Of a stretch of 13,929 nucleotides of DNA, positions 1-13,929 are shown in pieces (the first letter of the stretch is position 1; the number at the start of each line of letters is the position of its first letter). The notes under the pieces were generated by a model. That model ran no database searches. It was not told the DNA's origin and worked only from the letters and a program-made list of their open reading frames with translations. The translations under genes were made by a program, and so were the position numbers. The DNA comes from an uncultured bacterium. Lineage in GTDB: Bacteria; UBP6; UBA1177; JAKLFG01. The stretch is taken from positions 1 to 13,929 of the forward strand of contig CALITV010000004.1 of assembly GCA_938048925.1 (NCBI GenBank). Reading direction: 5' to 3'.

Positions 1-2934
1 GGTGTCTACATAGATATCGAAGGTCTGTTTCGCGCTCTCGTTGCCTACTTCGTCGCGCAGCCATGCCGTCACCGTATGCTTGGTCGCAAAAAGGTTGCTC
101 TTGTCGGTCTCCGCTAAATCGCCGAGATGTTCGCTGCTCTCCCACGAGGAGCCGGTCGTCTGGTGGCTCACCGCTTCGTTTACTCCGCCGCGGCTCACTA
201 CATACCGGTAGGTTATCGTGCTCCCCGGTCGGTCGCTCACATTGCTGAACGCTATCTTGAAGTCCTTCACATTCACCCACTTGCTCGCCGTCGGGATCGT
301 CCGCGGGATATCTTCGAGCGTCTCCATCCGGATGAGTCCGCTCGGGGCCGTCGTGTCCCGCGTCCGCGTAAAACTCTGCGAGCCGCGGTTGCCTGCTCGG
401 TCTTCCGCCGTGAAGGTTATGCTGTAGATCCCGTCTTCGCTTATCCCGCTCACCGTTATCGTGCCGGAGGGAAGTGCCGGAACATGTTCGTAAGTCGCCG
501 AAACTCCCCCCTCCTTCGTGATTGTGTAGTACTCCTTCCAAAGATACTCATCGCTCGCTGTGAAATCGAAGATAATCTCCCCCTTAATCACTTCAGCACT
601 CGGCGGGGTCACTGTCACGATGGGCGCCTTGGTGTCTTTGATGGCACGGATGACTCGCTGCCCACGGTTGTTCTGGTCGTCGGTCGCTTTCACGGTGATC
701 TGATGTTCGCCGTCGCTCCCGCCGATCACTAGACCGTCACCACGATACCAGCTTCCCTCTTGCACGAGGTCGTTCTTCTCGGCAAGAACCGTTGTCCCGT
801 CAAGGAGAATCTCGAGACTCTCGAGGTGTGCCGTTTCCCCGAGGCTCACCTCGAACCGCAGATCGAGTCCGTCCCGAATAAACGGTATGCTGTAGGGCTC
901 GTGATACCCGTAAAATGTGCTTTCTTCGGGTCGTTTGAACAGAAGTTCCTCTATCTCCGGCGGTTGCGCGACCACCGCTATCGGCGCTTTGTCGGCGGGG
1001 AAGAGTTCCGAGGTGTCCATCGCACTGTGGTAGATCATCCCTTGAAAGTCCTGATACGCATAGGTCGTCTTCTCTTCGATGTACCGTTTCATCGCCACCG
1101 CGTAATGGTACCGGTAAAGATACGAGTCAACCGTAAAGCCCTTTATCTTGAGCGCTTCTTCGTTCCGATCGGAGCCGTCGAACAGCGCGTTCTCCTCCAC
1201 GAGATCGGCCGCCAGTGCTTCGAGTACATCGTCTATGAGCACCGCTCCGCTCGAAAGCCCTTTCGCAGCCGCAATGTCTGCCGCCAGTTGTTCGAATGCG
1301 CCGTTCGCTACCCAGTGCCGCGTCGCCAACTCCCCCGGTTCACCCGCCACCGGACGACCGTAGGGCTGTATCTCGCCATAGTGCTCTTCCAAAAGCGACA
1401 GCGCATCGTCTATCGCTTCTTCTTCGCTGCGGCCACCTTTCTCGCGGAGACCTTGATAGATGATCTCCCGCATCGTCGTCAGCGGCGTCACATACGCCTT
1501 CGTCGTCTTCCCCCCCTCCACCACAAAGCGGCTCCTCAGCACCGTCGCCAGTTCGAGCACCTTCGGGGCCCCCTGCGCATCCCTAAATACCGCCGACTCG
1601 TAGGTCCCTCCGCTTACCTTCACCGTGTACTCCCCCGGTGGCAGGTCGCCCGTCACCGCACCGTTCTCTTCTTTCAAGGTCGCCACTTTCTTCGCCGAAC
1701 GATCGTATATCTCGGCAGATTCGATTCCCGAAACTTTTCCGGTGACATAGGCGAGGATCGTCACCTGATTGTGGTTTGCGAGCGTTATTTTGACGCTCTT
1801 CGTAACCTGTTCGATACCGTTCGATCCGCTGCAGGTAATGGTGTAAGCGCCATCGGCGAGTTCGGCAGACACGGTATCGAGCGTCGCCTCGAAGATTTCG
1901 GGATGGGTGTGGGTATCGGTGAGTGTCGCCGCCAGCGATCCGCCAGCGTCGGCCATGGTGCAGGTCACCGCCACCAGCGGGCAGGAATCGAGGGTCCGTT
2001 GGGCGCGGATGCGAATGGTCCCGAAAAGGACGGTGTCGTTCTTTGGAGTGATTATCTCTATCGCCGGCGGGTTGCCGACGGTGTCATAGTCGGGGTAGAG
2101 GTGTTCGTCGCTTGATTCATCGGGCATCGTATCGCCGTCGCTCTCCGCGCCCCCTTCGAGAAAAGCGGCTGGGGTCACGGCAAGGTGGTGTGCCCAGTCG
2201 GCGAGATCGGCCGCCGAGAAGGCACTGGAGACTGCGGGAAGCGCGGCCGGTATAAGCGTTCGTAGCACCTGTTCGTCAACAGCGAGCACCGGTCCGAACT
2301 TCGCACCGGACGATCCGTCTATGACCCGGTTGTCGGCAAGATCGTCGAGTATGAGATTCCAGAGTTTTTCGGTGGAGAGCGCCGTTTCGACACCTATCTC
2401 GTTGACTTTCGCGATGTCACGCGCAACGATCGCGAACGCCTCCTGCCAGAGATACCGTTTCGTCGCATCGGTGAGCGTCGTTTCGGCGACCGCCGCCGAA
2501 TCGCCCGCAAGGGCCAGATAGGAGCGCACCTCTTCTTGGGCCGTTTCGATGCCATAGGTTGCCGCAAGGGTCGAGACAAAGTCAACGAACACGCTCACCT
2601 TCTTTTGGTCGGTGACGACCACCCGTGCCACGAGGCAGCCGTTGAAGGCAACCGTTTCCTGCGCCCCGGCGCTGAAGAATCGGCCGCCGCAGGCCTTCAC
2701 GCGGAGGGTGCCGACAGCGCTCACCGCCTCGAACGAAAAGAATCCCTCTTCATCGCTCACCTCCTCGGCGATAACCGCGTCACTTCCCTCTTTCGTTACC
2801 TGTACCGTCGCATTCGTGAGCAGCGAACGCCCTTCGATGGCGACGGTAAAAGATCCGTTCCCCTGCGGCCGTTTGCTTTCACAGGAGATGAGCGCAACCC
2901 AGAAAACCATGAACAAAACACCGAGTTTTTTCAT
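1..2934 (-). CDS. Giant multi-domain lipoprotein, last visible gene of the T4SS operon (C-terminus off the left edge)
   Basis: The frame is open for 978 codons from the ATG at 2934 to the window edge, so the C-terminus is missing. An excellent ribosome site (AAAGGAGG, 2939-2946) precedes the ATG. The N-terminus is a lipoprotein signal peptide with lipobox LISC, lipidated Cys18, then Glu-Ser. Domains seen: a carboxypeptidase-regulatory-like beta-sandwich (about 26-85), a helical segment to about 210, a first Ig-like domain near 285-380, a second beta-sandwich with the phrase YVTPLTTM and helical segment (about 385-600), then tandem bacterial Ig-like domains from about 660 onward with linkers D-T-K-A-P (near 767) and D-T-T-A-P (near 860). 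The two sandwich-plus-helix modules look duplicated. It follows the beta-barrel-like gene by 29 bp with no visible terminator, so it is probably co-transcribed. Inference: an outer-membrane-anchored, probably surface-exposed protein that is substrate, adhesin or accessory of the T4SS. No enzymatic motif was recognised. Confidence 0.85.
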   Translation of the reverse strand, partial: MKKLGVLFMVFWVALISCESKRPQGNGSFTVAIEGRSLLTNATVQVTKEGSDAVIAEEVSDEEGFFSFEAVSAVGTLRVKACGGRFFSAGAQETVAFNGCLVARVVVTDQKKVSVFVDFVSTLAATYGIETAQEEVRSYLALAGDSAAVAETTLTDATKRYLWQEAFAIVARDIAKVNEIGVETALSTEKLWNLILDDLADNRVIDGSSGAKFGPVLAVDEQVLRTLIPAALPAVSSAFSAADLADWAHHLAVTPAAFLEGGAESDGDTMPDESSDEHLYPDYDTVGNPPAIEIITPKNDTVLFGTIRIRAQRTLDSCPLVAVTCTMADAGGSLAATLTDTHTHPEIFEATLDTVSAELADGAYTITCSGSNGIEQVTKSVKITLANHNQVTILAYVTGKVSGIESAEIYDRSAKKVATLKEENGAVTGDLPPGEYTVKVSGGTYESAVFRDAQGAPKVLELATVLRSRFVVEGGKTTKAYVTPLTTMREIIYQGLREKGGRSEEEAIDDALSLLEEHYGEIQPYGRPVAGEPGELATRHWVANGAFEQLAADIAAAKGLSSGAVLIDDVLEALAADLVEENALFDGSDRNEEALKIKGFTVDSYLYRYHYAVAMKRYIEEKTTYAYQDFQGMIYHSAMDTSELFPADKAPIAVVAQPPEIEELLFKRPEESTFYGYHEPYSIPFIRDGLDLRFEVSLGETAHLESLEILLDGTTVLAEKNDLVQEGSWYRGDGLVIGGSDGEHQITVKATDDQNNRGQRVIRAIKDTKAPIVTVTPPSAEVIKGEIIFDFTASDEYLWKEYYTITKEGGVSATYEHVPALPSGTITVSGISEDGIYSITFTAEDRAGNRGSQSFTRTRDTTAPSGLIRMETLEDIPRTIPTASKWVNVKDFKIAFSNVSDRPGSTITYRYVVSRGGVNEAVSHQTTGSSWESSEHLGDLAETDKSNLFATKHTVTAWLRDEVGNESAKQTFDIYVDT

Positions 2935-2963
2935 CTGATGACCTCCTTTCATGTGTGTTATGC

Positions 2964-3584
2964 CTAGAGAAAGTAGTAACTCTTGAGAAACCAAGTCGCT
3001 CCAACGAAGAAGGTGGTGTCGAGGTGCATCGCCGCGGGTGACCAAGTAAACGCCATCTGAACCGAAAGAAGGAGCCATTCCCACACGCGGTACTGAAGGT
3101 CGAAGCCGGCGGTCAGGCTGGGCTGCACCCGCGCATAGTCGGACCCCTCGAAGTCCTCAACGAGGAGGCCTCCTTTGGTATAGAAGGCACGCTCACGAAA
3201 GGTTTCCACCAGCATACCGCCGCCGGCAAAGAGGTGCGGCGAGAACGGATATCCGGGGTAGATGTTGTAGCGGGCAAGAAGCGTCAGGCTGTTCGAGAGA
3301 TAATTGAAATATTCCTTCCCCGCGACCCCGTTGAAGGTCTTTTTTGCGTAGATGTCGGCCAGATAGGTAACGCCGTACTGGAGCCCGAGGTCGAAGTTGT
3401 CGGTAACCCCGAAAAACGAACTGGCTGAGACACGCCACGAGGCAAGCACGACCACCGTGCGGTCATCGGTTCTTAGCGAGAACGGGAAATAGCCGCCGCC
3501 GCCGAGGTGGAACTGCCACTCGCCTTCCTCGGCCCGCAGGAGAAACGCCCCGAAAATCACGATCATCAGAAGTACGCGGCGCAT
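2964..3584 (-). CDS. Small outer-membrane beta-barrel-like protein
   Basis: A 206-residue protein with an N-terminal signal peptide (basic MRR, hydrophobic to about residue 16, likely cleavage near LRA/EEGEW). The rest alternates aromatic, glycine and polar residues in amphipathic strands, for example HLGGGGYFPFSL, NFDLGLQYGVTYL, HLFAGGGMLVETF and DTTFFVGATWFL. This is the look of an 8- to 10-stranded OmpA/OmpW-like barrel. The C-terminus ends in aromatic SYYFL rather than the classic terminal Phe. The ATG at 3584 is 2 bp past the stop of the VirB9-like gene, with a weak TAGGG ribosome site. Its place between virB9 and the giant lipoprotein suggests it is part of the secretion system, perhaps an outer-membrane partner of the core complex or an anchor for the surface lipoprotein. 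It has no specific family name that I recognise. Confidence 0.8.
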   Translation of the reverse strand: MRRVLLMIVIFGAFLLRAEEGEWQFHLGGGGYFPFSLRTDDRTVVVLASWRVSASSFFGVTDNFDLGLQYGVTYLADIYAKKTFNGVAGKEYFNYLSNSLTLLARYNIYPGYPFSPHLFAGGGMLVETFRERAFYTKGGLLVEDFEGSDYARVQPSLTAGFDLQYRVWEWLLLSVQMAFTWSPAAMHLDTTFFVGATWFLKSYYFL

Positions 3585-3586
3585 GG

Positions 3587-4522
3587 TCAGAACCCTACCG
3601 TGAGGCGAATTTTGCGCATCTTTCCGCTCTCTTCGGTCACCTCGATGACATACTGCGGCGTGTAGTCCTTTATCGTGAAGCCGACCGCTCCTTTGAGCAC
3701 CTCGTCGAACTTGATGCCGTATTTGTCAACCCAGTAGAAAGCCTCCATCTCGATCTCCGAGCCGCCCTGCAGCGCATAGACCTTCACCTCCTTGAGATAG
3801 AAGTAGTTACGGTAGCGGTTTTTGATAAGGAAGTTGATAACTACCGTTTCGGGACCGATCTTACAGATACGGTCGCTCGACAGAAAGACGAGGTCCTCTT
3901 CCTCGCGGTTACGGTAGGTGTTGCACATGAAGAATTCGCCGAATTCGCGAGTGAGGAATTCGAGTTTCTTCTGCTCGGCCAGCTTATCCACCGCCGCCAT
4001 TGCCGTTTTGTGCTCCTCATGCAGTTTGTTCTTGAGTTCGATGAGTGTGTCCTGCATCGCCTTCTGTTTCGCCGTGAATTCCGGGTAGGTGAAGACGATG
4101 CGGTTCGACGCTTTCGCCGGTTCCGATATACGGAAATTGATGATAAAGGTGATGCCGACATTGGTCTTCAGTTGGAGGTTGGTATTGAGTCCCCACATCT
4201 CGTTCTCGGCGACGCCGGCGAACGGAAGTGCCCAGACCTTCATGGAAAGCGGACTTACTTCGACTTCCGCCTTGAGAAGCGCATGATCGCCGACGACCGG
4301 ATCGCCGACGAGGGTCATCCCTTCGGGGAATTCGAGGACGAGCACCTCGCCGATCGCGATGCCAACGGTCCGGTAGAGAATCGTGTCGCTGTTTTTGAGT
4401 TCTACCGTCGCCACCTTGTCGGTAATCGGGATGAAGCGTTCGTCGGGTTTCACCGCCTTTGTCGCCTCGGCGGCCGAAAGAAAAAAGCAGCCCAGCACCA
4501 TGATAAAAAAGAGTTTTCTCAC
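3587..4522 (-). CDS. virB9-like: VirB9/TrbG-like periplasmic core component of the T4SS
   Basis: I place the start at GTG 4522 (311 residues): a strong AAGGAGG lies 7 nt upstream, and this start gives a clean signal peptide with Ala-Glu-Ala cleavage near residue 20. An in-frame GTG at 4564 overlaps the previous stop but lacks a ribosome site and would bury the signal. The N-terminal half (about 25-145) is a beta domain with VirB9-like features: hydrophobic strand and FPEGM, then a GDPVVGD segment, and a phrase NLQLKTNVGITFIINFRI resembling the family's N-L-x-V-x-T strand. The C-terminal third (about 225-311) is a second beta domain (FLIKNRYRNYFYLKEVKVYAL). Between them is a charged, Lys/Glu-rich helical stretch (about 150-204) that is longer than I expect for the linker. 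In the family this protein forms the outer-membrane core ring with VirB10 and VirB7; no VirB7-like gene is seen. Family assignment is by pattern and position, not by alignment. Confidence 0.6.
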   Translation of the reverse strand: MRKLFFIMVLGCFFLSAAEATKAVKPDERFIPITDKVATVELKNSDTILYRTVGIAIGEVLVLEFPEGMTLVGDPVVGDHALLKAEVEVSPLSMKVWALPFAGVAENEMWGLNTNLQLKTNVGITFIINFRISEPAKASNRIVFTYPEFTAKQKAMQDTLIELKNKLHEEHKTAMAAVDKLAEQKKLEFLTREFGEFFMCNTYRNREEEDLVFLSSDRICKIGPETVVINFLIKNRYRNYFYLKEVKVYALQGGSEIEMEAFYWVDKYGIKFDEVLKGAVGFTIKDYTPQYVIEVTEESGKMRKIRLTVGF

Positions 4523-4529
4523 CGTGTTC

Positions 4530-4536
4530 CCTCCTT
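4530..4536 (-). promoter_or_regulatory. Ribosome binding site that decides the virB9-like start
   Basis: AAGGAGG on the minus strand, 7 nt before GTG 4522. It argues against the longer reading from 4564, which has no Shine-Dalgarno sequence in front of it. Confidence 0.7.
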
Positions 4537-4560
4537 TTTCTGCCATCTGTCGCCGCCACC

Positions 4561-5550
4561 TCACTCAATATACACCACAAACACCGTTCCGGCGCCGACG
4601 CGATATTCGTAGCGGGCCCGTTCCTGTTCGTTCTTTTCCTTGAATTCGCCCGCTGTGCCGCTGATGACGCCGCTGGTAGCTCCACCGGTCGCCGTCGCCG
4701 CAAGGTTGTCGAGCACCCGCCCCGCCGCGTCGGTGACCCCGGAGGTGAAGGTTATCTTCGCATTGTTCCCTATCTCGATGACCTCGGACGGAATGCCGGG
4801 GTCTCTGCCGCTTATCGCATAGCCTTTGATGGCGTATTCGGCCTCTCCGACACGCATCTTGGTGAACTGCACATAGGTTCGCTTGTTGGCGAAACTGCCG
4901 CTCCCATAGAGGAGGCTTCCCGCCGGAATCCCCGCGGCTTCCTGCGTCGTTTCGGCAACGATCGCGTTCGAGGCCGACGAGCGAATACTGAACTTGAGCC
5001 GCGCCTTGAGCGAGACATTGTGCAGATCTACGCTGCCCTTCTCTTCCCCCGCGCCGCGCCCGACCACCCGGACACCGCCCGGAGCACCCTGTTGACCAGC
5101 ACCGGCGGCAAAGGGGCGCGGGCGGTAGCGGAGTACACTTTCGCCGTTTGAGGAAACGCCTTCCTCATCTGCCGCCGCCGCAGGGTTTATTGCTCGATAT
5201 TGCTCGATGATCTCCTTGTCCTTGAGATAGTTCTGACTGCGCGAAGAGGTTGTGCGCAGTCGTTCGGAAGCGGCCGGCTGAGATGCCGTCTCCAGCGCAG
5301 CCGGCGATGAGGTTTCGCTTGCCACACGGGACGCCGGGCGCATGAGTCCTCGTATTTCCTGCGGCGTTACACTCCGCAACGCTTCGATCATCTTCTTCGT
5401 ATCCGATGACGGCCCCTCATTCCCCGCTGGGGTCTCGGTTGCCACGAAGCGGCTCACCATGAAAAGCAGGATAATGAACCCCCCGGCGGCGATGGAAAGC
5501 CCCACCACCTTCGCCCGCTTTTCGGCGCTCGACGAATGCCGCTCGCTCAT
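4561..5550 (-). CDS. virB10-like: VirB10/TraM-like inner-to-outer membrane spanning T4SS core protein
   Basis: A 329-residue protein with a short basic cytoplasmic tail, one membrane segment (about 15-36), a long Ser/Ala/Pro/Glu-rich periplasmic linker (about 37-170) and a C-terminal beta domain (about 178-329). That domain has IPAGSLLYGSGSF (208-220), a later ISGRDPGI phrase (246-253), an Ala/Gly-rich insertion (about 275-300) where VirB10 proteins carry the outer-membrane antenna, and the terminal strand RVGAGTVFVVYIE. This architecture is that of VirB10/TrbI/TraB; the IPAGxxLYGxxSF and GRDPGI pair recalls the Bacteroidetes conjugative TraM variant. The start overlaps the stop of the second VirB8-like gene as ATGA, with GGAGG 7 nt upstream. 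Known role of the family: senses inner-membrane energy and gates the outer-membrane channel. The C-terminal domain makes this one of the more secure calls in the cluster. Confidence 0.8.
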   Translation of the reverse strand: MSERHSSSAEKRAKVVGLSIAAGGFIILLFMVSRFVATETPAGNEGPSSDTKKMIEALRSVTPQEIRGLMRPASRVASETSSPAALETASQPAASERLRTTSSRSQNYLKDKEIIEQYRAINPAAAADEEGVSSNGESVLRYRPRPFAAGAGQQGAPGGVRVVGRGAGEEKGSVDLHNVSLKARLKFSIRSSASNAIVAETTQEAAGIPAGSLLYGSGSFANKRTYVQFTKMRVGEAEYAIKGYAISGRDPGIPSEVIEIGNNAKITFTSGVTDAAGRVLDNLAATATGGATSGVISGTAGEFKEKNEQERARYEYRVGAGTVFVVYIE

Positions 5551-6242
5551 TCGGCTTCCTCCGGGAAAACGATGTCGCGCTTGAGAAGGAACGCCTGTCG
5601 CAGGTCGGGATCGTCGAAGAATCGTATCTGGTAGAAATCAACGAGGAGTCCGTAGGGAGTCACCGCGGTCACCGGCACCGGCTGGAGCGCAGCATGCACA
5701 TAGGCATAGAGCGTCGAACGCTCATAGGGGCGATGATCGCCCGCGAAACCGACGGCGGGGCGGAAGACGAACTTGCCGAGCATCTCGACCGTCAGACGCC
5801 CCTCCTCCCCCGCCGAAAGGCGCGCCTTTTCGCGGAGAAAATCGCTGCGGATGTTTTGGTTCATCCATTTCTCGGCACGGCCGGCATCGGCGCGTTCGGC
5901 AAGAAGCACCTGCTGGAGGCGCGGCGTCATCATGCCGTAGGCCTCGGCAATAGCAACCGCCGCATCGGGGCGCTGAGCCGAGTAGCGATCAACGAACTGA
6001 TCAATGAACAGAAGCGCCTGCGGACGCGGAACCGGCAACGCCACCGGCGCCTCGGAGATGCCGCAGTACTCAACGACGGCGACGGGACGAAGGATAACGC
6101 CCCACCACGCGCCGGCAAGAGCAACGACCACGAGAAAGAGCACCCCTGCCGCCAGCCAGACCGCGCGCCGTGCCATACGCCGCGCCGCTTCGACCTGAGC
6201 AATACGATAGGCGCTAAAAAACTGTTCGGCTGGCTGTTTCAT
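5547..6242 (-). CDS. virB8-like: VirB8-like inner-membrane protein, second paralogue
   Basis: A 231-residue bitopic protein: a cytoplasmic N-terminus of about 27 residues rich in Arg/Ala, one membrane segment (about 28-50), then a periplasmic domain with an NTF2-like helix-then-sheet composition. The end carries TPYGLLVDFYQIRFFDDPDL (195-214). The same signature recurs in the preceding gene, so the two are paralogues. Length, topology and position between the VirB6-like and VirB10-like genes fit the VirB8/TrbF/TraE family, an assembly factor that bridges the inner-membrane platform and the core complex. The ATG at 6242 overlaps the upstream stop as ATGA. Sequence similarity to any named VirB8 is too low to see by eye, so the call rests on architecture and synteny. 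Confidence 0.6.
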   Translation of the reverse strand: MKQPAEQFFSAYRIAQVEAARRMARRAVWLAAGVLFLVVVALAGAWWGVILRPVAVVEYCGISEAPVALPVPRPQALLFIDQFVDRYSAQRPDAAVAIAEAYGMMTPRLQQVLLAERADAGRAEKWMNQNIRSDFLREKARLSAGEEGRLTVEMLGKFVFRPAVGFAGDHRPYERSTLYAYVHAALQPVPVTAVTPYGLLVDFYQIRFFDDPDLRQAFLLKRDIVFPEEAE

Positions 6243-6883
6243 GGCACTTCTGCCTTGTCCAAAAAGACCTTGAGCAGGTCTTCGCTTTCGAAAAAACGCG
6301 CCTCGAGCCAGTGGACGAGCAGCCCGTAGGGAATCCGTTCACTGAACGGCTCGACCAGAAGCGTCGCCTGAAAGAATATCGGCACCGGTGCTTCGGAGGC
6401 ATCAGCCGCCTCGAAGCGCGCCGCAGGGGTGAATAACACCTCGCCGGTTCCCATAACCTGCAACGAGGTTCCCGGCACCGGATTGCCCGACAAAGTAAGC
6501 CGGTGCACCCGCGCCACCACCCGGAGCGCTTCATCCGGCCACTGCGGTGGCCGCCACGCGGCAGAAGCGGCATGGGTAAAAGCGGGGGAAACCATCTTCT
6601 CGAACGACGGGGATGCGTTCTTCCGCTCCGCTTCGAAGGAGGCGCTCAAAAATCGTTCGAGGAAGAATCGCACCGCCTTCTCGTCACGCGGCGCATCGGC
6701 GGCAGCCGGTTCGGCGATCACCGCGGCACCGGTCGCGGCGCACCGCACGATCACCGTCGAGGGCTGCACCGCGCGATGGACGAGCGCAGCAAGCAAAACG
6801 ACAACAGCAATCGCCAGCACACCGAGCGTTATCCAACCTGCCCCGAGCACTATGCGGTGGGTCGCCGTTGCCGCAATTCTCAC
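6239..6883 (-). CDS. virB8-like: VirB8-like inner-membrane protein, first paralogue
   Basis: A 214-residue bitopic protein with a very short N-terminal tail, a membrane segment (about 12-36) and a periplasmic domain ending in IPYGLLVHWLEARFFESEDL (184-203), closely matching the end of the following gene. The start is a GTG that overlaps the VirB6-like stop as GTGA (6880-6883), with a weak GGGGGTG ribosome site, so it probably depends on translational coupling. Compared with its neighbour it has almost no cytoplasmic tail, so the two copies may differ in what they contact inside the cell. Family knowledge: VirB8 proteins dimerise and bind VirB10/VirB9. I infer that the two could form a heteromeric assembly, but cannot exclude that this one is a diverged accessory protein. 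Confidence 0.55.
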   Translation of the reverse strand: MRIAATATHRIVLGAGWITLGVLAIAVVVLLAALVHRAVQPSTVIVRCAATGAAVIAEPAAADAPRDEKAVRFFLERFLSASFEAERKNASPSFEKMVSPAFTHAASAAWRPPQWPDEALRVVARVHRLTLSGNPVPGTSLQVMGTGEVLFTPAARFEAADASEAPVPIFFQATLLVEPFSERIPYGLLVHWLEARFFESEDLLKVFLDKAEVP

Positions 6884-7863
6884 ACCGCACCCCCATTCCG
6901 GCCCCCCATGACGGCGCCGATCCGCTGAGACAGGGCATTGGCCACCGCCGCTCCCGACTCGCTGCGCACCACCATCGCGGCGATAGCCGGCGTGAGAGCG
7001 CCGAGCGTGATGAGAAACAGAAAATAACCGATGAGCGGTGCCAGCGTCGTCAAGTTCGCGAGCAGGCTGCCAACCACCGTCTCGTAATCATGCTCCTTCA
7101 TCATAGCGGAAAAAGCGTCGAACAGCGGCGAACTCACCTGCGCCGCCACACCGAACCCGATGTTGTAGATGACCGGCCAGACACTTACCTCGATAACCAG
7201 TGCCGCGAAGCGTTTTACCGGATCCCACCCGGCAAACGAGGTAAAGGGCACCGCGAACACAAAACCGAGGAGTACTAGTTGGTGGACGAGCGGCCAGAGG
7301 ATATCGAGCAAAAGGAACTTCACGGCAAGCGCAAGGACCAGAAGCCCTTTGAACAAAAAAGCCAACGCAAGCCCCCAGAGAAACGGCGGCGTAACGAGCG
7401 CCGCTGGCGCGACCGCAGCCGGTTCCTCACCGGGGTTGTCTCGCACCGCATCCTGCGGCCCGAAGGCGAGGCGCATGGTCACCTCGTCGAAGCCGGCATA
7501 GGTGTCCGCCATGGACGCGGCGGGACCGGCAGTCGCCGTGACGACGAGGGCCGCCGCCTCGCTCATTGCCCGCCCCCCGTAATCGTAGAGAAGAAAAAGC
7601 ACCGCATAGAGCGCGACGGTGCGAAAAACCCCGGCGCTCGAGGCGCTCCCCAGCGTGATGCGTACTACCTGCACCACGAGCGACACGACGAACGCTGCAC
7701 CGAGAAAAAGATTTCCCGCAGTGAGGAGCCATGAAATTTCGGGGCGCCGGAGGTTTTCTTCGAAGGTCGCCAGCGGCATATAGGGCGTTTGGGCAAACAC
7801 AAATGGAAAAGCGACGCCGATGATGAGGAGGGCAACGCCCCCGCGCAGCGCGACATTTCTCAT
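6880..7863 (-). CDS. virB6-like: VirB6/TrbL-like polytopic inner-membrane channel protein
   Basis: A 327-residue protein starting at ATG 7863, overlapping the virB4 stop as ATGA, with a perfect AGGAGG 6 nt upstream. The same frame is open farther upstream, but that is the shadow of virB4 and is arginine-rich. The N-terminus (residues 1-24) resembles a signal peptide or first membrane helix ending FVFAQ. Further hydrophobic segments lie at about 43-70, 79-95, 161-190, 195-212, 222-246 and 268-300. A tryptophan-proline phrase (SVWPVIYNIGFG, about 227-238) sits in the central membrane region, as in VirB6/TrbL/TraG-type proteins. Family role: inner-membrane conduit for the substrate. The assignment relies on hydropathy, size and its place between the VirB4- and VirB8-like genes. 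Confidence 0.7.
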   Translation of the reverse strand: MRNVALRGGVALLIIGVAFPFVFAQTPYMPLATFEENLRRPEISWLLTAGNLFLGAAFVVSLVVQVVRITLGSASSAGVFRTVALYAVLFLLYDYGGRAMSEAAALVVTATAGPAASMADTYAGFDEVTMRLAFGPQDAVRDNPGEEPAAVAPAALVTPPFLWGLALAFLFKGLLVLALAVKFLLLDILWPLVHQLVLLGFVFAVPFTSFAGWDPVKRFAALVIEVSVWPVIYNIGFGVAAQVSSPLFDAFSAMMKEHDYETVVGSLLANLTTLAPLIGYFLFLITLGALTPAIAAMVVRSESGAAVANALSQRIGAVMGGRNGGAV

Positions 7864-10196
7864 GACGCCTCCTGCGCCGCGATGGCACATGCCTCGATGA
7901 GCGAACAGCGATGCCGCGACGCGATCTCGTCGAGATGTTCGTTGTCGCCCCGGTCGCTCGTCGCCAGCCAGTACTCGAACGGCGAAAGTTCTATCCGAAC
8001 CGTCGCCCGCTCGAGACGATCGCCGATCTGGAGTCGTGCGAGGGCGAGCGCATACTGCCGCTTGACCGTTTTCAGCGCCTCGAACTCGCGCCGCTCGAAT
8101 TCGGAAAAACCGAAGTCGTCGGCCACGAGCCGCTTCGCCTCGGGCGCCTCGGCGTGGGAAAGAATGAAGGAGGCGGTCGTGTTGAGCGCGATCTTCGAAG
8201 AAAGATGACACTCCTTGTAGGAGAGGTAGTTTTGCGTGATGGTGTAGATCTGCGCATGGTATTTGCGCGCTGTCGCATACATCTCTTCGATGAGCGAGGC
8301 CATCCGCGGATCTTTGATGAGTTGCGCCGCTTCGTCGAAGAGAAGCGATTTGTAGCCGCTCCGGCGGAACGCCGCGTTCTTTGCCTCCTGAATCACCACG
8401 AAGGTCATCAGTTCGCGCATCCGCGGCGTAAGGCTCGAAAGCCCCTGCAAATCGAACACCACCATCGGGGCATCCCCGTAATCGAGCGTCGTTTCGCCAT
8501 CGAGGAGCCGACTTTCGGGGCTTGCGAGGAACCCGCGCAACAGCGCGATCGTTTCCTGCCGAATGGCCGCATCGGCGTCCGCAATCGTTTCGAGACACGA
8601 CACCAGATCGGCAAGGCGCGGTCGCTCGTGTGTGCGGTAGAGCGCCTCGATTCCCTTCAGCACGAAAAAACGCACGAGATTGGCCCGCGCATCGTCGCCG
8701 CGGTTTCCCACGGCGAGATCAATCACCACCTGCAGAAAGGTCGTTTGCGCCGCATCGAGCACCCCGTCCCGCATCATGCGATCACGCGCCGGAAACGGGT
8801 TGATGGTGTGGGTCGCCGCCGCATCGAGCGCAAAGAAACGACCATCGAGAAGGCGCACACACTTGCGATAGGAACTGTTTTCGGCACCCGCGAAATCCAC
8901 GACGAAACAGACGCCGCCGTAGCGGGCGATCCGCCGGTATATCGAAGAAAGGATGATCATGTTCATGAGCACCGACTTCCCCGACCCGGAAGCGCCGAGC
9001 ACCATGGTATTCCACGGCTGACGCCGACTGCTGAACGAATCGAACGCAAAGAGGGTCCCGAACTTGGTGCGCAGGTAGAGCGGGAACTCTTCGCCGCTGT
9101 CGCCGCGCGCAAGGCGGCCGATCCGCAGGAGCGCAATCGCGTGCGGGGTAAGCGCCTTGAGTCCACGCGTCGAGAAAAAGGTCGTCGCCGGCAGGGAACG
9201 GAAAAACTCGCGGTCGTGGCAGAACTCTTCCTCGAAGAAGTAAAAACCCTGCCGTTTGAACGCAGCCACCACCGCGCGCGCTCTTTCGTCGAGATGCCTT
9301 TCGTCACGGTCGCGAAGAATGATTTTTTGCGTGGTTGCGACGATGAGATGCCCCGACTCCTCGAGATATTTCTTGAGTTCATCCGATTCCTCATAACGGC
9401 GGAGCGCCGCGTGATTGACCGGCCGCTTGACCGCATGCCCCGCTCCATCCACCGCGTTGGTCGAAGAATAAGAGAGATTGCGCACGAGCGAAATCGCTCC
9501 GGCAGCGGTGCGCTGATCGAGCACGGAGCACGAGGAAACGAAACAGTAGGACCCACCGATTTCATCGAGGATACGGTCAATCATAAAATAGTCGAGACGA
9601 TCGGGCAGGTGCTTGAGCGTCAGCACCTTGACGAAATCACCACCGATACGCATCCACTCGGGGCTGTAGCGCACCGGCCACTGCACGAGCGCTTCCCGCA
9701 CCGACATATCGGCGGCGGCGCTGAAATCATCGTCGCCGTTGACGAGCCGGTAATACCACGCCATTATCTCAGCGGTCGTCAGACGGCGCGCCTCGATACC
9801 GAGAAGATCGAAGAAGGTCTGCCAGCGATCGAACTGAGGTGCAATGCTCGATGGCCGCCCGGTGGCACGATCAGTCGTCACCGTAAGGTAGGTCTCGAAG
9901 CGCCGCACCGGCCGCTCGGCAAGGAACCGGCCCCGCTCACGCACGAGGCGATCAACATCGTCGCGACAGCGATCCAGTTCAGGATCGCGGTCGTGGGCTA
10001 TCGCGAAGCACGCTATTGTCGCATCGAGTGCTCCGAGTTCGCGATTGAAAAAGGTTTCGGCGGCCTCGAAGCGGTGCGCATGGAAGTAGTGGTCAACTCC
10101 ATTCACCGAAAAGACGGCGGAGCGCTGCCACGCGTCGTTCACGATGAGATCGTCCTCGATACCACGGATCGCAAGCAGATCGAACACCGACCTCAT
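7860..10196 (-). CDS. virB4-like: VirB4-family T4SS ATPase
   Basis: A 778-residue protein with the hallmark order of VirB4/TrbE/CagE. An N-terminal domain of about 350 residues precedes the ATPase core. Walker A is GASGSGKS at 401-408 (catalytic Lys407). Walker B is LLFDEA with Asp621 and Glu622. A downstream ATARKYHAQIYTITQN segment holds Arg644, Lys645 and Gln655 of the VirB4 C-terminal motifs. The ATG at 10196 overlaps the VirB3-like stop as ATGA and has AAAAGGA upstream. VirB4 powers pilus biogenesis and substrate movement on the cytoplasmic face of the inner membrane. It is the strongest family call in the window and anchors the interpretation of the smaller neighbours. All ATPase motifs look intact. 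No VirB3 fusion is present, since virB3 is a separate gene. It is the only ATPase of the system visible here. Confidence 0.95.
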   Translation of the reverse strand: MRSVFDLLAIRGIEDDLIVNDAWQRSAVFSVNGVDHYFHAHRFEAAETFFNRELGALDATIACFAIAHDRDPELDRCRDDVDRLVRERGRFLAERPVRRFETYLTVTTDRATGRPSSIAPQFDRWQTFFDLLGIEARRLTTAEIMAWYYRLVNGDDDFSAAADMSVREALVQWPVRYSPEWMRIGGDFVKVLTLKHLPDRLDYFMIDRILDEIGGSYCFVSSCSVLDQRTAAGAISLVRNLSYSSTNAVDGAGHAVKRPVNHAALRRYEESDELKKYLEESGHLIVATTQKIILRDRDERHLDERARAVVAAFKRQGFYFFEEEFCHDREFFRSLPATTFFSTRGLKALTPHAIALLRIGRLARGDSGEEFPLYLRTKFGTLFAFDSFSSRRQPWNTMVLGASGSGKSVLMNMIILSSIYRRIARYGGVCFVVDFAGAENSSYRKCVRLLDGRFFALDAAATHTINPFPARDRMMRDGVLDAAQTTFLQVVIDLAVGNRGDDARANLVRFFVLKGIEALYRTHERPRLADLVSCLETIADADAAIRQETIALLRGFLASPESRLLDGETTLDYGDAPMVVFDLQGLSSLTPRMRELMTFVVIQEAKNAAFRRSGYKSLLFDEAAQLIKDPRMASLIEEMYATARKYHAQIYTITQNYLSYKECHLSSKIALNTTASFILSHAEAPEAKRLVADDFGFSEFERREFEALKTVKRQYALALARLQIGDRLERATVRIELSPFEYWLATSDRGDNEHLDEIASRHRCSLIEACAIAAQEAS

Positions 10197-10462
10197 CGCC
10201 GATCCTTTTCGAGAAGGATGTAACTACCCCGACCGCCCGTAAGGACACGCCACATAAGAAACAGTATCTCATCACGGCCATCGAAGAGGCGACGGAGGAG
10301 CCAACCGAATCCATAGGCGGCAAGGAGTGCTATGAGCATGGCGAAGAAGCGACCTTTCCCACGCCACAAAAGCGCAGTCGCCGCGAACGCGCCGCCCGCA
10401 AGGAAGACAACCTGCGGCGGCAGGGCACCCCCGCGGGCGCCGAGAACCCGCCAGACCTTCAT
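10193..10462 (-). CDS. virB3-like: VirB3-like small inner-membrane protein
   Basis: An 89-residue protein with two adjacent hydrophobic segments (about 17-33 and 39-56) in a short basic context, then a C-terminal tail ending ILLEKDRR. Two membrane helices, a length near 90, and placement between the pilin and the VirB4 ATPase match VirB3/TrbD. In the family VirB3 associates with VirB4 and is needed for pilus assembly. The ATG at 10462 has no good ribosome site and lies 17 bp after the pilin stop, so translation is probably coupled to the pilin gene. Its stop overlaps the virB4 start. The protein is too short for a confident call on sequence alone. Confidence 0.65.
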   Translation of the reverse strand: MKVWRVLGARGGALPPQVVFLAGGAFAATALLWRGKGRFFAMLIALLAAYGFGWLLRRLFDGRDEILFLMWRVLTGGRGSYILLEKDRR

Positions 10463-10479
10463 GACGACGCGGGTATTCG

Positions 10480-10785
10480 CTATTTCATCATCTCGACGAG
10501 CGACGAAGCGAGCGCGATGACCACCGCGCCGATGAGCGCCCCGATCACCACCCCGCGCCCCCGCGGATTGCCCGTCCCCCAGAGGATACCGCCGATGATC
10601 GCGCCGAGGGTGAAGAGCCCATAGCCGACATTGGTGGCAACCGAAATGACCGAATTGACCTTGGCGGTCAGTTTCTGTTCCACATCGCCGCCGGCTGCCC
10701 AGAGCACCTCCGAGAAACCGAGCAACAGCACACCAGTCACCAGCGCAAAGACGAGAAAAGACCTGCTCCGAGAAAGAATCGCCAT
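10480..10785 (-). CDS. virB2-like: VirB2/TrbC-like major pilin precursor
   Basis: I choose the ATG at 10785 (101 residues) because AAAGGGAG lies 6 nt upstream; the frame is open to 10860, but the extension is basic, not signal-like, and includes the promoter. Residues 1-30 form a long signal peptide (SRSR, then a hydrophobic core, ending LWAAGG). The mature part has two hydrophobic helices (about 45-69 and 79-96) separated by a short basic, glycine-rich turn GNPRGRG, the classic VirB2 pilin hairpin. It is first in the operon, as expected for the most highly expressed subunit. Family role: polymerises into the pilus or channel-lining filament. Cyclic or processed forms cannot be judged here. 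Confidence 0.8.
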   Translation of the reverse strand: MAILSRSRSFLVFALVTGVLLLGFSEVLWAAGGDVEQKLTAKVNSVISVATNVGYGLFTLGAIIGGILWGTGNPRGRGVVIGALIGAVVIALASSLVEMMK

Positions 10786-10791
10786 GTGATA

Positions 10792-10799
10792 CTCCCTTT
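10792..10799 (-). promoter_or_regulatory. Ribosome binding site of the pilin gene
   Basis: AAAGGGAG on the minus strand, 6 nt before ATG 10785. It selects this start over upstream in-frame ATGs, which lack such a site. Confidence 0.65.
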
Positions 10800-10830
10800 C
10801 CAGCATGTTTCTACTTCGGAATCGGTTGGC

Positions 10831-10860
10831 ACCATAACGACGGGGAAACACTGTTGTCAA
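10831..10860 (-). promoter_or_regulatory. Predicted sigma-70 type promoter of the T4SS operon
   Basis: On the minus strand a perfect -35 box TTGACA (10860-10855) is followed after 18 bp by TATGGT (10836-10831), which matches four of six -10 positions. Transcription would begin near 10824, giving a leader of about 39 nt before the pilin ATG. It lies directly downstream of a terminator, which supports an independent operon start. Confidence 0.6.
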
Positions 10861-10985: not shown

Positions 10986-12404
10986 CTACTCCGGTAGCGG
11001 CGCAGAGAATTTGGCTCCCCACGCGGCGCACTCGTCATCGCTCAGAGCGGTCGTTTCTTCGGAAGCCCGTTCGGTTGAGAACTCGCCGCCGCCGCGCCCT
11101 TGAAAGGTGGTAACCACCGAACCGTCGGCAACCCGTTTGATGACCCCTTCGAACCACGGTATCTGAATCACGATGACATATTTCTTTACCACATCGGTCG
11201 CATCGGAGAGCATCGGCACCTGCCCGTTCCCGATGGTTATCTGCGCCTCGACACGGTAGGTGTCGTTCTGGGCGACGAGCGTGGTATCGTGCGGGGTGCA
11301 CTGGCGGGCAACCGGATCGAATTTCCATGTATGATGCTCCCAGCCCAGTTCCCCCCGATCGGCGCGGAAATTGACGAGTCGGTAGTCGTCGCCGTCATAA
11401 AAGCCGAGATCGAGATAGTCGAGTCGCGTCGATTTGAAGTGGTAGGACTGCCAGCCGAACATTACCTTCGTCGCGGCGTCGGAACAGGTCCCGAAGTCCC
11501 AGCCCCCCTGATTGAACGCCCAACGGCCCCACGAATTCTCGCGGTAGCCGTGCGCGTCTATCGGTATGGTCTCGTCGGTTCTCAGGTCTTTTATCCAGCC
11601 GGTGATCTTGGTGCGCGGCCAGAACATGTGGACATTCCACACCTGCGACACCGGGAATCCCATCACCTGCGTGTCCACCTTGTCGTCGGTCACTTTGACG
11701 AAGGTCTCCGCTCCGCTCGTGAGGATCGTCCAGTCCTGCCTCACGGTGAGTTCCCATGCGAAAGTGCCCGTTTTTCCTTCGAGGAGCATCGTGTTAGTTA
11801 CCGGATCGGGCGTCATGCGACCCCAGTAGCCTTTGTCCTTGTTCTCGACCCAGAAGGATCGCTCTTCGCCCGAGGCCTCGAAGGTGTGCCCGTTGTCGGG
11901 ATCGAAGTTCTCGTAATCGGCGACCGGCGGTTCCCCATGGTCGAAGCGCCCCGCTATAGCAATGTTGCCGCCGCCCGGCACCAGTTTCCCGAAGGCGCCT
12001 CCCGCAATCTGAGCATTGCGCGGATTCGCGATGAGGTAGCCGACCGAGCCGCTGAACGAATCATCCTCGTTGTGAATCATGAAATAGTCCCACTCGAACG
12101 AGAGGGCATCCCACTGCGGGTCTATCTCATAGGTCGGCTTGAGGATTTCCCAGCCGTAGGTTCCCTCATACGCAGGAAAGGCGTTGAGATCGGCGAACGG
12201 ATCGTCGGCATCGGTCGCCGAATCATCGCCGATCAGATCATCGGTCACCGCCGTATCCTCATCGGTGCCCACCGCATCGTCGCCAGCCGTTACGCCGTCA
12301 TCGGAGACCGCCATGGTGTCGTTCCTGTTGTCGCCCCCGCCATCACAGGCAGCCGCCACAAACGCCGTCAGCGCCGCCACGATCACGCTTGCCGCTTTCA
12401 TCAT
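10986..12404 (-). CDS. Asp-rich lipoprotein with CrtC/AttH-like (lipocalin-type) body
   Basis: A 472-residue protein with a lipoprotein signal peptide and lipidation Cys at residue 20 (VAAAC). A linker of about 50 residues follows, packed with Asp, Thr and Ala (about 21-72). The remaining 400 residues are Trp/Tyr/Gly-rich beta structure, including WDALSFEWDYFMIHNEDD, TFAWELTVRQDW and a central AHGYRENSWGRWAFNQGGW (274-292). The last resembles the GYxDHNWG-type phrase of carotenoid 1,2-hydratase (CrtC) and AttH-like double-lipocalin proteins. Function is unknown: such folds bind or hydrate hydrophobic molecules, but I see no proof of catalysis. GAGGAGG lies upstream of two adjacent ATG codons (12404 and 12401). 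It seems monocistronic, with a terminator before the T4SS promoter, so it is probably not part of that operon. Confidence 0.75.
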   Translation of the reverse strand: MMKAASVIVAALTAFVAAACDGGGDNRNDTMAVSDDGVTAGDDAVGTDEDTAVTDDLIGDDSATDADDPFADLNAFPAYEGTYGWEILKPTYEIDPQWDALSFEWDYFMIHNEDDSFSGSVGYLIANPRNAQIAGGAFGKLVPGGGNIAIAGRFDHGEPPVADYENFDPDNGHTFEASGEERSFWVENKDKGYWGRMTPDPVTNTMLLEGKTGTFAWELTVRQDWTILTSGAETFVKVTDDKVDTQVMGFPVSQVWNVHMFWPRTKITGWIKDLRTDETIPIDAHGYRENSWGRWAFNQGGWDFGTCSDAATKVMFGWQSYHFKSTRLDYLDLGFYDGDDYRLVNFRADRGELGWEHHTWKFDPVARQCTPHDTTLVAQNDTYRVEAQITIGNGQVPMLSDATDVVKKYVIVIQIPWFEGVIKRVADGSVVTTFQGRGGGEFSTERASEETTALSDDECAAWGAKFSAPLPE

Positions 12405-12535: not shown

Positions 12536-13438
12536 ATGCTTACGAGTTGTCCTCACTGTCATCAGCCGATAACGGTTCCGGGGCCGGGGCCGTGCGCCTG
12601 TCCCAAGTGCCGTGCGCTCATTTTCGTCGGAGAACCTCTCCGCGACGAGGAAAATCGCATCTTGCGCACGCCGGAAGAAAAACCGGAGAAACCACAAACG
12701 GAACCTGTCGAAGAATTTGACGAAGAAGATGGTTTCGACGATGTCGGCCCCGCCGAAGGGGCGCATGCCCGCGGCGAGATACCGAGCCCGGAGCGTCGCT
12801 CCCAGAGCGCGGCACGCGATCCGTTATGGATAATCGGCGTACCGTGGGACCATGCCGAAAATATAGGATTCACCGAGGCGTTCTACGAGACGACCCGCAA
12901 AATTTTTCTTTCGCCGCGCCACTTCTTCACCGCGATGGTGTTTTCGGCGAAAGCCTCGCGATTCATCCCCCTTTACGGCGTCATTGTCGGCACGGTAGGC
13001 GCCGCTTTCAACCTTTTCTGGATCCTGTGGCTCGTCCGACACCACCGGCCGCTCCTCGAGCGCTACGTGCCGCCGGCGCTCCTCGACTATTTCGGTCAGA
13101 TGCAAACCGGCGACATTCTCGCGCAGGTGTTCCTCTCGCCGATCGCCGGCATCGTCATCGCGGCGTTCCTGTTGTTCGCCTTTTCGCTTCTCCTCGGGGC
13201 ACGCACCGACCTCTACCATTTCTACCGTCTGAGCGGTTTTACTGCGGCGATCGATCTTTTCTACGCTGTCCCCCTCCTCGGGTGGGTGATCGCCTTCGTT
13301 TGGCGCAGCGTGCTCCTTGTTATAGGGGTGCACACCATCACGAACCTGTCGCTCAAAAGGTCGTTCGCCGTGTTTGCACTGTATCTTCTTCTTTCTGTCA
13401 TCATGCTGGTCCCGGCAGGCCTGTCGGGGGGAGGATAA
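12536..13438 (+). CDS. Zinc-ribbon plus Yip1-like integral membrane protein
   Basis: A 300-residue protein in three parts. An N-terminal zinc ribbon has CPHC (Cys5, Cys8) and CPKC (Cys22, Cys25), plus an extra Cys20. A disordered, Glu/Asp/Pro-rich linker spans about 34-95. A membrane domain follows, beginning with the amphipathic phrase PWDHAENIGFTEAFYETTRK and SPRHFFTAM (about 103-134), typical of bacterial Yip1-domain proteins (classically IPWE...P..FF..M), with hydrophobic helices at about 144-168, 196-220, 236-267 and 279-296. The molecular function of bacterial members is not established; membrane organisation or trafficking-like roles are guesses. The start is set by GGAGGA 4 nt upstream. 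The stop lies 3 bp before ispF, so the two genes are probably co-transcribed. Confidence 0.8.
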   Translation: MLTSCPHCHQPITVPGPGPCACPKCRALIFVGEPLRDEENRILRTPEEKPEKPQTEPVEEFDEEDGFDDVGPAEGAHARGEIPSPERRSQSAARDPLWIIGVPWDHAENIGFTEAFYETTRKIFLSPRHFFTAMVFSAKASRFIPLYGVIVGTVGAAFNLFWILWLVRHHRPLLERYVPPALLDYFGQMQTGDILAQVFLSPIAGIVIAAFLLFAFSLLLGARTDLYHFYRLSGFTAAIDLFYAVPLLGWVIAFVWRSVLLVIGVHTITNLSLKRSFAVFALYLLLSVIMLVPAGLSGGG

Positions 13439-13441
13439 CAG

Positions 13442-13929
13442 ATGACCGTTTTCCGCGTCGGTCTCGGTTTCGACATTCATCGCTTCGCCACCGGGAGACC
13501 TCTTTTCCTCGGCGGCGTTGATATCCCCTCCGAGAGGGGACTTCTCGGCCACTCCGACGCCGATGTTCTGCTCCACGCGGTTACCGATGCGATCCTCGGT
13601 GCGGCGGGAATCGGCGACATCGGCGAACTTTTTCCCGATAGCGACCCGAAATTCAAGAACATACGGAGCACCCTCCTTCTCGAAGAGTCGCTCCGGCGCC
13701 TCCACGACGCCGGCTGGCGGGTGGTCAACTGCGATGTGGTCCTCGTCTGCGAGGCCCCGAAGATCCTGCCGTACCGTGCAGCGATTCGCGGTTCGTTGGC
13801 AACGCTCCTCGGCATCGCCCCCGAAGCGGTCATGGTAAAGGGAAAGACCGCCGAACAACTCGGGTTCATCGGCCGCGGCGAAGGTATCATGGCACAGGCG
13901 ATCGTGCTCATTGAACAAACGAAAGACTA
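13442..13929 (+). CDS. ispF: 2-C-methyl-D-erythritol 2,4-cyclodiphosphate synthase
   Basis: IspF converts CDP-methylerythritol 2-phosphate to the cyclic diphosphate with release of CMP, in the cytosolic MEP route to isoprenoids. The visible 162 codons hold all the landmarks: GFDIH with metal ligands Asp11 and His13, GHSDADVLLHAVTDA with the third ligand His45, GDIGELFPDSDP for the cytidine/phosphate site, CEAPKILPY, and TAEQLGFIGRGEGI at the C-terminal end. Length already equals the usual 155-162, and the final two bases are TA, so the stop is very probably TAA or TAG cut by the window edge. GGAGG lies 7 nt upstream of ATG 13442. It is a housekeeping gene and marks this locus as chromosomal. 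Confidence 0.97.
   Translation, partial: MTVFRVGLGFDIHRFATGRPLFLGGVDIPSERGLLGHSDADVLLHAVTDAILGAAGIGDIGELFPDSDPKFKNIRSTLLLEESLRRLHDAGWRVVNCDVVLVCEAPKILPYRAAIRGSLATLLGIAPEAVMVKGKTAEQLGFIGRGEGIMAQAIVLIEQTKD

Follow-up and report, generated by a model that had tools for sequence, protein, structure and literature searches.

A conserved type IV secretion operon with a predicted outer-membrane barrel and a giant lipoprotein in an uncultured bacterial phylum

What is the purpose of a type IV secretion system (T4SS) that has no coupling protein, VirB11 or relaxase gene beside it? The question is raised by contig CALITV010000004.1, a stretch of 13,929 nucleotides from an uncultured bacterium, referred to here as the window. 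The window is the entire contig C4 of the source genome, G000 (1.47 Mb in 293 contigs, 65% complete). The contig ends inside a giant lipoprotein gene and the distal part of the operon therefore lies outside the window. The source bacterium encodes a T4SS of the VirB superfamily, with a VirB4 that has an intact P-loop, a VirB9/VirB10 core, VirB8 and VirB2. The system is a conserved T4SS variant and is apparently undescribed. Among the records listed by literature searches on VirD4-less or non-conjugative T4SSs, candidate phyla, giant lipoproteins and the Myxococcus plasmid pYRE, within the collection and terms covered, there was no account of it. Our favoured explanation, to which we give a probability of about 0.5, is that a conjugation-type T4SS has become chromosomal, has been stripped of its DNA-loading parts and works as a contact or adhesion apparatus.

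The T4SS is encoded by ten minus-strand genes in a row. Neighbouring genes overlap or abut, with spacings of −4 to +38 nt. The order is B2, B3-like, B4, B6-like, B8a, B8b, B10, B9, barrel and lipoprotein; this confirms the arrangement given in the original prediction, which had been made from the letters of the window. For VirB4, the top-scoring model was NCBIfam TraC-F-type (E 1.1e-42), followed by VirB4_CagE (E 3e-34); both scores are far under the curated cut-offs, and the ranking is one of model scores rather than of an MPF (mating-pair formation) class reference tree. Pfam PF03135 did not match in the source genome, despite the VirB4 there, and was set aside as the wrong model for this protein. 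An alignment (A1) was built from 15 of 22 VirB4 pieces. The columns G-x-S-G-S-G-K-S and D-E-A-x-Q are invariant in all 15 sequences.

The remaining VirB-type proteins have weaker matches to family models, or none. The VirB2-like protein of the window scored 26.5 bits with Pfam TrbC, against a cut-off of 27.9, and 9 of 16 aligned members matched TrbC at E ≤ 0.1. Matches to an unrelated PH-domain family were found in 12 of the 16 (best 0.0037, which is chance level). Pfam VirB8 was matched by 10 of 20 aligned members, with a best value of 5.1e-7; the two window copies taken alone gave E 0.065 (B8a) and 0.47 (B8b). Matches of the VirB8 profile to PDB sequences were at chance level and were discarded. 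In the VirB10 family of 19 members, TraM was matched by three and TrbI by two. A sequence-family search with VirB9 gave no convincing match. Conversely, the predicted structure matches VirB9 structures, and identification of the 3587..4522 product as a VirB9 homologue is supported by this model. The 89-residue VirB3-like protein could be aligned with 12 relatives; it had no VirB3 family match in Pfam or NCBIfam searches of the operon proteins. Similarly, the 327-residue B6-like protein had no VirB6 match in family-model searches. It is 49% identical to the copy in genome G006 and 14–19% identical to members from families f2 and f3 (see below). Both assignments, B3 and B6, are weak and use position, size and hydrophobicity. 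No VirB5, and none of the F-specific proteins TraU, TraH, TraW, TraF and TraN, was matched among the ten operon proteins, to which these searches were confined.

The last two genes encode envelope proteins. The barrel is predicted to have 8 strands, and porin III of Dot/Icm (entry 9nh2) is among its best structural matches. By sequence, the VirB9, VirB10 and barrel profiles found no useful match in the PDB. The giant lipoprotein has a Pfam Big_13 match in the window (E 6.7e-9). Members uncut by a contig end, together with one that is nearly complete, have 1,619–1,762 residues. Immunoglobulin (Ig)-like domains are present in all four giant lipoproteins scanned, that of pYRE included. At the N-terminus, a lipid-type cysteine is followed by x-x-K-R-P in 17 of 17 sequences, including that of the window. 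The gaps of at most 38 nt leave no room for a small separate VirB7 between the window genes, the check being confined to these intergenic spaces. We tried the giant lipoprotein as VirB7 using the PVNK-type motif, taken from the available text of PMC3093366; the motif was present in 0 of 17 members. By elimination only, the lipoprotein may have a VirB7 role.

How widely is this operon kept? The sample was 28 genomes of the source phylum in families f1 (that of the window), f2, f3 and f4; 25 genomes are outside f4 and three are in it. VirB4 of this family occurs as a single copy in each of 21 genomes, all among the 25 outside f4 (0 of 3 in f4). Eighteen genomes have a completeness of 90% or more and a contamination of 5% or less; VirB4 is carried by 14 of these. 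Regions around VirB4 were taken from 20 relatives, and the operon unit is the same wherever the contig allows a view. Gene calling skipped B3 in loci L029, L030 and L040 and B8 in L039 and L040 (there are gaps of 181–730 nt at these places); in the window, it put a plus-strand open reading frame on top of B6. The gene order is B9-B10 in 17 loci, from f2 and f3, and B10-B9 in two, the window and G006. There is one B8 gene in f2 and f3 loci, whereas the window and G006 have two.

The giant lipoprotein was found in 21 of the 28 genomes at E ≤ 1e-8. Lipoprotein and VirB4 are both present in 20 genomes and both absent from six; each occurs without the other in one genome. Fisher's test gave p 1.2e-4, without a correction for kinship. 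The lipoprotein without VirB4 is in G027, which is 59% complete. The VirB4 without lipoprotein is in G012, where the contig ends in the barrel. In G006, the lipoprotein sits on a separate contig, C70, and its N-terminus is missing.

The operon is under purifying selection. The ratio of nonsynonymous to synonymous substitution rates (dN/dS) was 0.026–0.196 in four species pairs, nine genes being compared in three of the pairs and eight in the other. Internal stops are absent from 20 of 21 matched VirB4 frames. The VirB4 frame of G019:C172 (L036) has one in-frame TGA, which may mark a pseudogene, an assembly error or a sequencing error. In three of the four species pairs, the lipoprotein is the operon product with the lowest identity at the amino-acid level. 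The VirB4 family stands apart in the database; of the 7,992 candidates scored, chosen for sharing the most words, 16 proteins reached at least 380 bits and the rest at most 53. One of the relatives, P0014, carries the label Spirochaetia bacterium. The barrel family comprises 68 clusters, the weakest at E 2e-39, among the best 7,995 candidates scored. RecA and VirB4 trees agree broadly only; these were quick trees, with long branches flagged and no formal congruence test. The f2 and f3 VirB4 proteins form one clade, with f2 outermost, and the protein of G013 falls outside its genus.

We searched the same 28 genomes for transfer genes. The VirD4 model PF02534 matched in one genome, G006. Apart from G006, matches to PF12696 were inside VirB4, except for a weak one in G009. 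Hence, 26 of 28 genomes have no VirD4 match outside VirB4 itself. For the 19 VirB4 carriers of f2 and f3, PF02534 matched in none and PF12696 matched outside VirB4 in one (the weak match in G009, on another contig). The G009 gene (L087 3006-4481), missed by PF02534, is VirD4-like; its small contig also carries a ParB-like gene. The source genome had no VirD4 match, at 65% completeness and with the contig ending inside the operon. The MOBP relaxase was found in 0 of 28 genomes and MOBF in one, G006; MOBQ, MOBH, MOBV, MOBC and MOBT were not part of the search. No VirB11 exceeded the TIGR02788 cut-off (250 bits) in any of the 28, the cut-off being uncalibrated on HP1421 of Helicobacter pylori. 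Among the matches listed, the best TIGR02788 score in f1–f3 was ~66 bits, from frames of PilT/PilB/GspE size. The f4 genomes G001–G003 have far stronger VirB11-model matches (E to 2.8e-65, below the cut-off), perhaps of Tad/CpaF type. The absence of VirD4, VirB11 and relaxase that had been noted locally is thus borne out for the wider lineage. Because the searches for VirD4, MOBP, MOBF and VirB11 were near-empty, the f2 and f3 systems look non-conjugative.

The flanks of the operon bear on its location. A Yip1 gene is present in all five genomes of the window's family, the source genome included, and ispF adjoins it in G005, G006 and G007 as in the window. In G005, ispF, the Yip1 gene and, two genes on, the flanking lipoprotein gene lie together without the T4SS. 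Therefore, this is a chromosomal presence/absence site, which supports the chromosomal location originally claimed. No integrase was found among the searched window genes, and no tRNA gene, on a contig that ends inside the operon. Elsewhere, VirB4 loci are on contigs of 422 kb (G023) and 204 kb (G016). The contigs of barrel P0180 and RecA P0049 have the same length, 2,829,024 bases, and are read as one chromosome.

Where might the system have come from? The top-ranked plasmid match was Myxococcus stipitatus plasmid pYRE (NZ_CP102771), at 1e-27. Profile E-values for pYRE refer to a set of 13 proteins with filters off. Collinear matches were obtained for VirB4 (6.6e-62), B6 (3e-5), B8 (1.2e-10) and B9 (9e-14). 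The B2, B3, B10 and barrel profiles found nothing significant in pYRE, and its B2 and B3 are positional only. A coupling protein gene is upstream of the pYRE T4SS and a 1605-residue giant lipoprotein is encoded downstream. This lipoprotein matches our lipoprotein profile at 2.1e-21, with one stretch of the profile matched in two places; it was not found with the window lipoprotein alone as query. Hence, pYRE resembles the window in its collinear B4, B6, B8 and B9 and its giant Ig-domain lipoprotein, and differs in having a coupling protein, a plasmid location and no significant barrel or VirB10 match. The simplest reading of these sequences is domestication, in which a conjugation machine was taken into the chromosome and VirD4 was lost. 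A plasmid search with the window VirB9 gave no match, and 67 pattern stretches in viral contigs included no relative. Plasmid pYRE (L048, NZ_CP102771.1) is typed non-mobilizable and also carries the topoisomerase gene topA.

The established part of the favoured explanation comprises the gene set and its conservation, the single VirB4, purifying selection, the co-occurrence of the lipoprotein and the folds predicted for VirB9 and the barrel. In the proposed contact or adhesion apparatus, VirB4 would drive a VirB2 pilus or pseudopilus to assemble through an outer-membrane complex of VirB9 and VirB10. Next to this complex, the 8-strand barrel would serve as an outer-membrane anchor or collar; it is not proposed as the channel because it is too narrow. 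The giant lipoprotein would be moved across the inner membrane as lipoproteins ordinarily are, and its lipidated N-terminus would hold it at the VirB9/VirB10 complex. Exposed on the outer surface, or pushed through it, the lipoprotein could then bind other cells, surfaces or the pilus. Gene transfer would thus be a less probable function than attachment or surface display. A more specific version, which we regard as doubtful, is that the giant lipoprotein has replaced VirB7. Its C-x-x-K-R-P N-terminus would dock on the VirB9 ring, forming a barrel-held crown of long surface arms, and this contact organelle would have been kept by vertical descent through the entire order.

Several observations weigh against a contact apparatus. 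For f1, the family of the window, the case is weaker: the unit has a patchy distribution, being present in 2 of 5 genomes (it is absent from G005, of the same genus as G006), and G006 carries possible clients. G006 has five contigs with MOBF matches (L054, L055, L088, L089 and L090), two of them adjoining VirD4, and is the sole genome of the 28 with a MOBF relaxase beside VirD4. Hence, the description of the system as a dedicated non-conjugative apparatus is supported for f2 and f3, where no linked transfer genes were found, and less firmly for f1; conjugation in the source strain is possible. Since a related lipoprotein is encoded alongside a coupling protein on pYRE, the lipoprotein alone is no argument against conjugation. 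Gain of VirD4 by the plasmid is a candidate for the opposite direction of change. The lipoprotein may simply be periplasmic. The RSP proteins of plasmid R27, with which it is compared below, are secreted and not described as lipoproteins, and conjugation is intact in R27. Finally, in G004, a YhgA-like transposase-family gene (L037 2887-3852) follows the lipoprotein gene at a distance of ~2 kb.

Could the unit be a resident mating-pair machine, conjugating the DNA of plasmids or islands equipped with a relaxase and coupling protein of their own? The two G006 contigs with MOBF beside VirD4 would suit this, the T4SS of G006 being the closest to that of the window among the 28 genomes. So would the VirD4-like gene beside a ParB-like gene in G009, and the coupling protein that pYRE keeps adjoining its collinear system. 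We consider such a machine unlikely; 26 of 28 genomes lack VirD4 outside VirB4, though 14 of 18 good genomes carry VirB4, and the unit is maintained by selection without visible clients. A two-step exporter like Ptl or Brucella VirB, releasing the giant lipoprotein or other periplasmic proteins outside, is improbable in our estimation. It would account for the lack of VirD4 at the locus, the terminal position of the lipoprotein gene and the co-occurrence of lipoprotein and VirB4. TrhC is a TraC/VirB4-type ATPase. Export of the Ig-domain protein RSP2 requires TrhC, according to the available text of PMC8730810. However, a lipid anchor favours display over release, and downstream of the lipoprotein the only recurrent gene among the loci listed is a sulfatase-family gene, in at least five loci. 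From the lipoprotein or protein exporter offered in the original prediction, the tie between machine and lipoprotein is retained, and export itself remains a rival.

Natural transformation by a ComB-like DNA importer was the other function offered there. The tendency of lipoprotein and VirB4 to occur together makes a lipoprotein-linked machine the better fit. The importer draws on the shared B2-B4, B6 and B8-B10 roles, the lack of VirD4 at the locus and the presence of ComEC in 26 of 28 genomes. Nevertheless, ComEC is present in 7 of 7 genomes without VirB4 and in 19 of 21 with it (G009 and G024, both VirB4 carriers, lack it). Therefore, the presence of ComEC does not follow that of the T4SS. 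The available text of PMC13395361 makes the premise of a VirB11-independent ComB outdated, and no VirB11 was over the cut-off in the 28 genomes. In addition, VirB4 scores best with the TraC-F-type model, and ATPases of PilT and PilB size (named by size), the usual uptake route, are present in all 28. Hence, we do not favour the importer and rate it as distinctly improbable. Least credible is a decaying remnant of an integrated conjugative element, which we judge very improbable. The in-frame TGA in G019, the lack of transfer genes at the locus and the patchiness in f1 would be expected of a remnant. Values of dN/dS of 0.03–0.20 on the compared genes, stop-free frames for 20 of 21 matched VirB4 genes and invariant ATPase motifs would not.

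The features of the window are listed in Table 1. The operon had originally been started at 10860; the TTG there coincides with a −35-like TTGACA, and 10785 is the likelier start of virB2. The promoter-like match at 10860-10831 has 10 of 12 consensus positions, and 0.8 such sites are expected by chance. The flanking lipoprotein (10986-12404) is long, with an acidic low-complexity start and no Pfam match, and is conserved in G005.

Table 1. Features of the window, with the basis for each assignment.
Feature	Position	Strand	Basis
VirB2-like pilin, 101 aa, signal peptide	10480..10785	−	Pfam TrbC/VirB2 E 7.8e-6
VirB3-like small membrane protein, 89 aa	10193..10462	−	Position, size, hydrophobicity; weak
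VirB4/TraC-type ATPase, 778 aa	7860..10196	−	Walker A GASGSGKS, FDEAAQ box; family models
VirB6-like polytopic membrane protein, 327 aa	6880..7863	−	Position, hydrophobicity
VirB8 paralogue a, 214 aa	6239..6883	−	phmmer match to B8b E 3e-13
VirB8 paralogue b, 231 aa	5547..6242	−	Pfam VirB8 in aligned family
VirB10/TraM-like protein, 329 aa	4561..5550	−	Pfam Transposon_TraM 6.7e-4; conserved C-terminal core
VirB9 homologue, 311 aa, two beta domains	3587..4522	−	Predicted structure
8-strand outer-membrane barrel, 206 aa	2964..3584	−	Predicted structure
Giant lipoprotein, N-terminal 978 residues, runs off contig	1..2934	−	Lipobox, C-x-x-K-R-P, Ig-like domains
Sigma-70-like promoter match preceding virB2	10831..10860	−	10/12 consensus positions; weak
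Flanking lipoprotein, outside machine	10986..12404	−	Orthologue in G005 (E 1.7e-219)
Flanking zinc-ribbon/Yip1 protein	12539..13438	+	Pfam Yip1 6.8e-5, under its cut-off; chromosomal marker
ispF, runs off contig	13442..13927	+	Chromosomal marker

Further genes occur in or beside the unit in relatives. An AlbA_2/Schlafen-domain gene is inserted between B2 and B3 in L032 (2988-4436), and a YhcG nuclease gene between B10 and the barrel in L042 (4402-5463). In G006, a gene for 88 residues lies between the two B8 genes (L023 4467-4733) and one for 164 residues, without a Pfam match, follows the barrel (L001 8344-8838). Beyond the unit, the neighbours identified in three f2 and f3 loci are diacylglycerol-kinase/YegS, aromatic amino acid lyase, sulfatase and radical-SAM genes in G023, a phosphorylase-family gene in G016 and the YhgA-like gene of G004.

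How does this system compare with known ones? H. pylori ComB shares the B2-B4, B6 and B8-B10 roles and has no VirD4 or VirB5. It differs in being placed in the MPF-T clade and in needing the VirB11-family ATPase HP1421/ComB11; the barrel and giant lipoprotein are outside the ComB set (available text of PMC13395361, 2026). The F-type (MPF-F) TraC systems are alike in the TraC-F-type VirB4 model and in having no VirB11 over the cut-off. Conversely, their TraU, TraH, TraW, TraF and TraN are unmatched in the window operon, which also has no VirD4 at its locus. Bartonella Trw is, like the window system, a VirB-type set without VirD4, and a pilus or adhesion role has been proposed for it in the portion of PMC12857230 available. 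Trw has multiple VirB2 and VirB5 copies, whereas the window operon has one VirB2-like gene, no VirB5 match and, in addition, the barrel and giant lipoprotein. RSP and RSP2 of the IncHI plasmid R27 are, like the window lipoprotein, large Ig-domain proteins encoded with a T4SS; the likeness is one of description. Both bind pili and flagella (available text of PMC8730810). The Dot/Icm porin rings of Yue et al. 2025 are outer-membrane barrels around a T4SS complex (available text of PMC12857230; entry 9nh2). The window barrel is likewise a predicted outer-membrane barrel that would sit next to a T4SS complex. It differs in that its gene is inside the operon, and the OmpW/OmpA-type fold is common.

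The VirD4-less T4SSs named in the available text of PMC12857230 are Ptl, Brucella VirB, ComB and Bartonella Trw, from a few host-associated bacteria. The window system occurs across an order within an uncultured phylum and adds two operon-encoded envelope parts, the barrel and the giant lipoprotein. According to the same source, porin arrays may generally surround the outer-membrane complexes of T4SSs, with a role still to be found. A barrel gene retained in the operon of the machine provides a genetic handle on that role. Similarly, the pYRE relative, with its coupling protein, provides a comparison for the repurposing of a conjugation machine.

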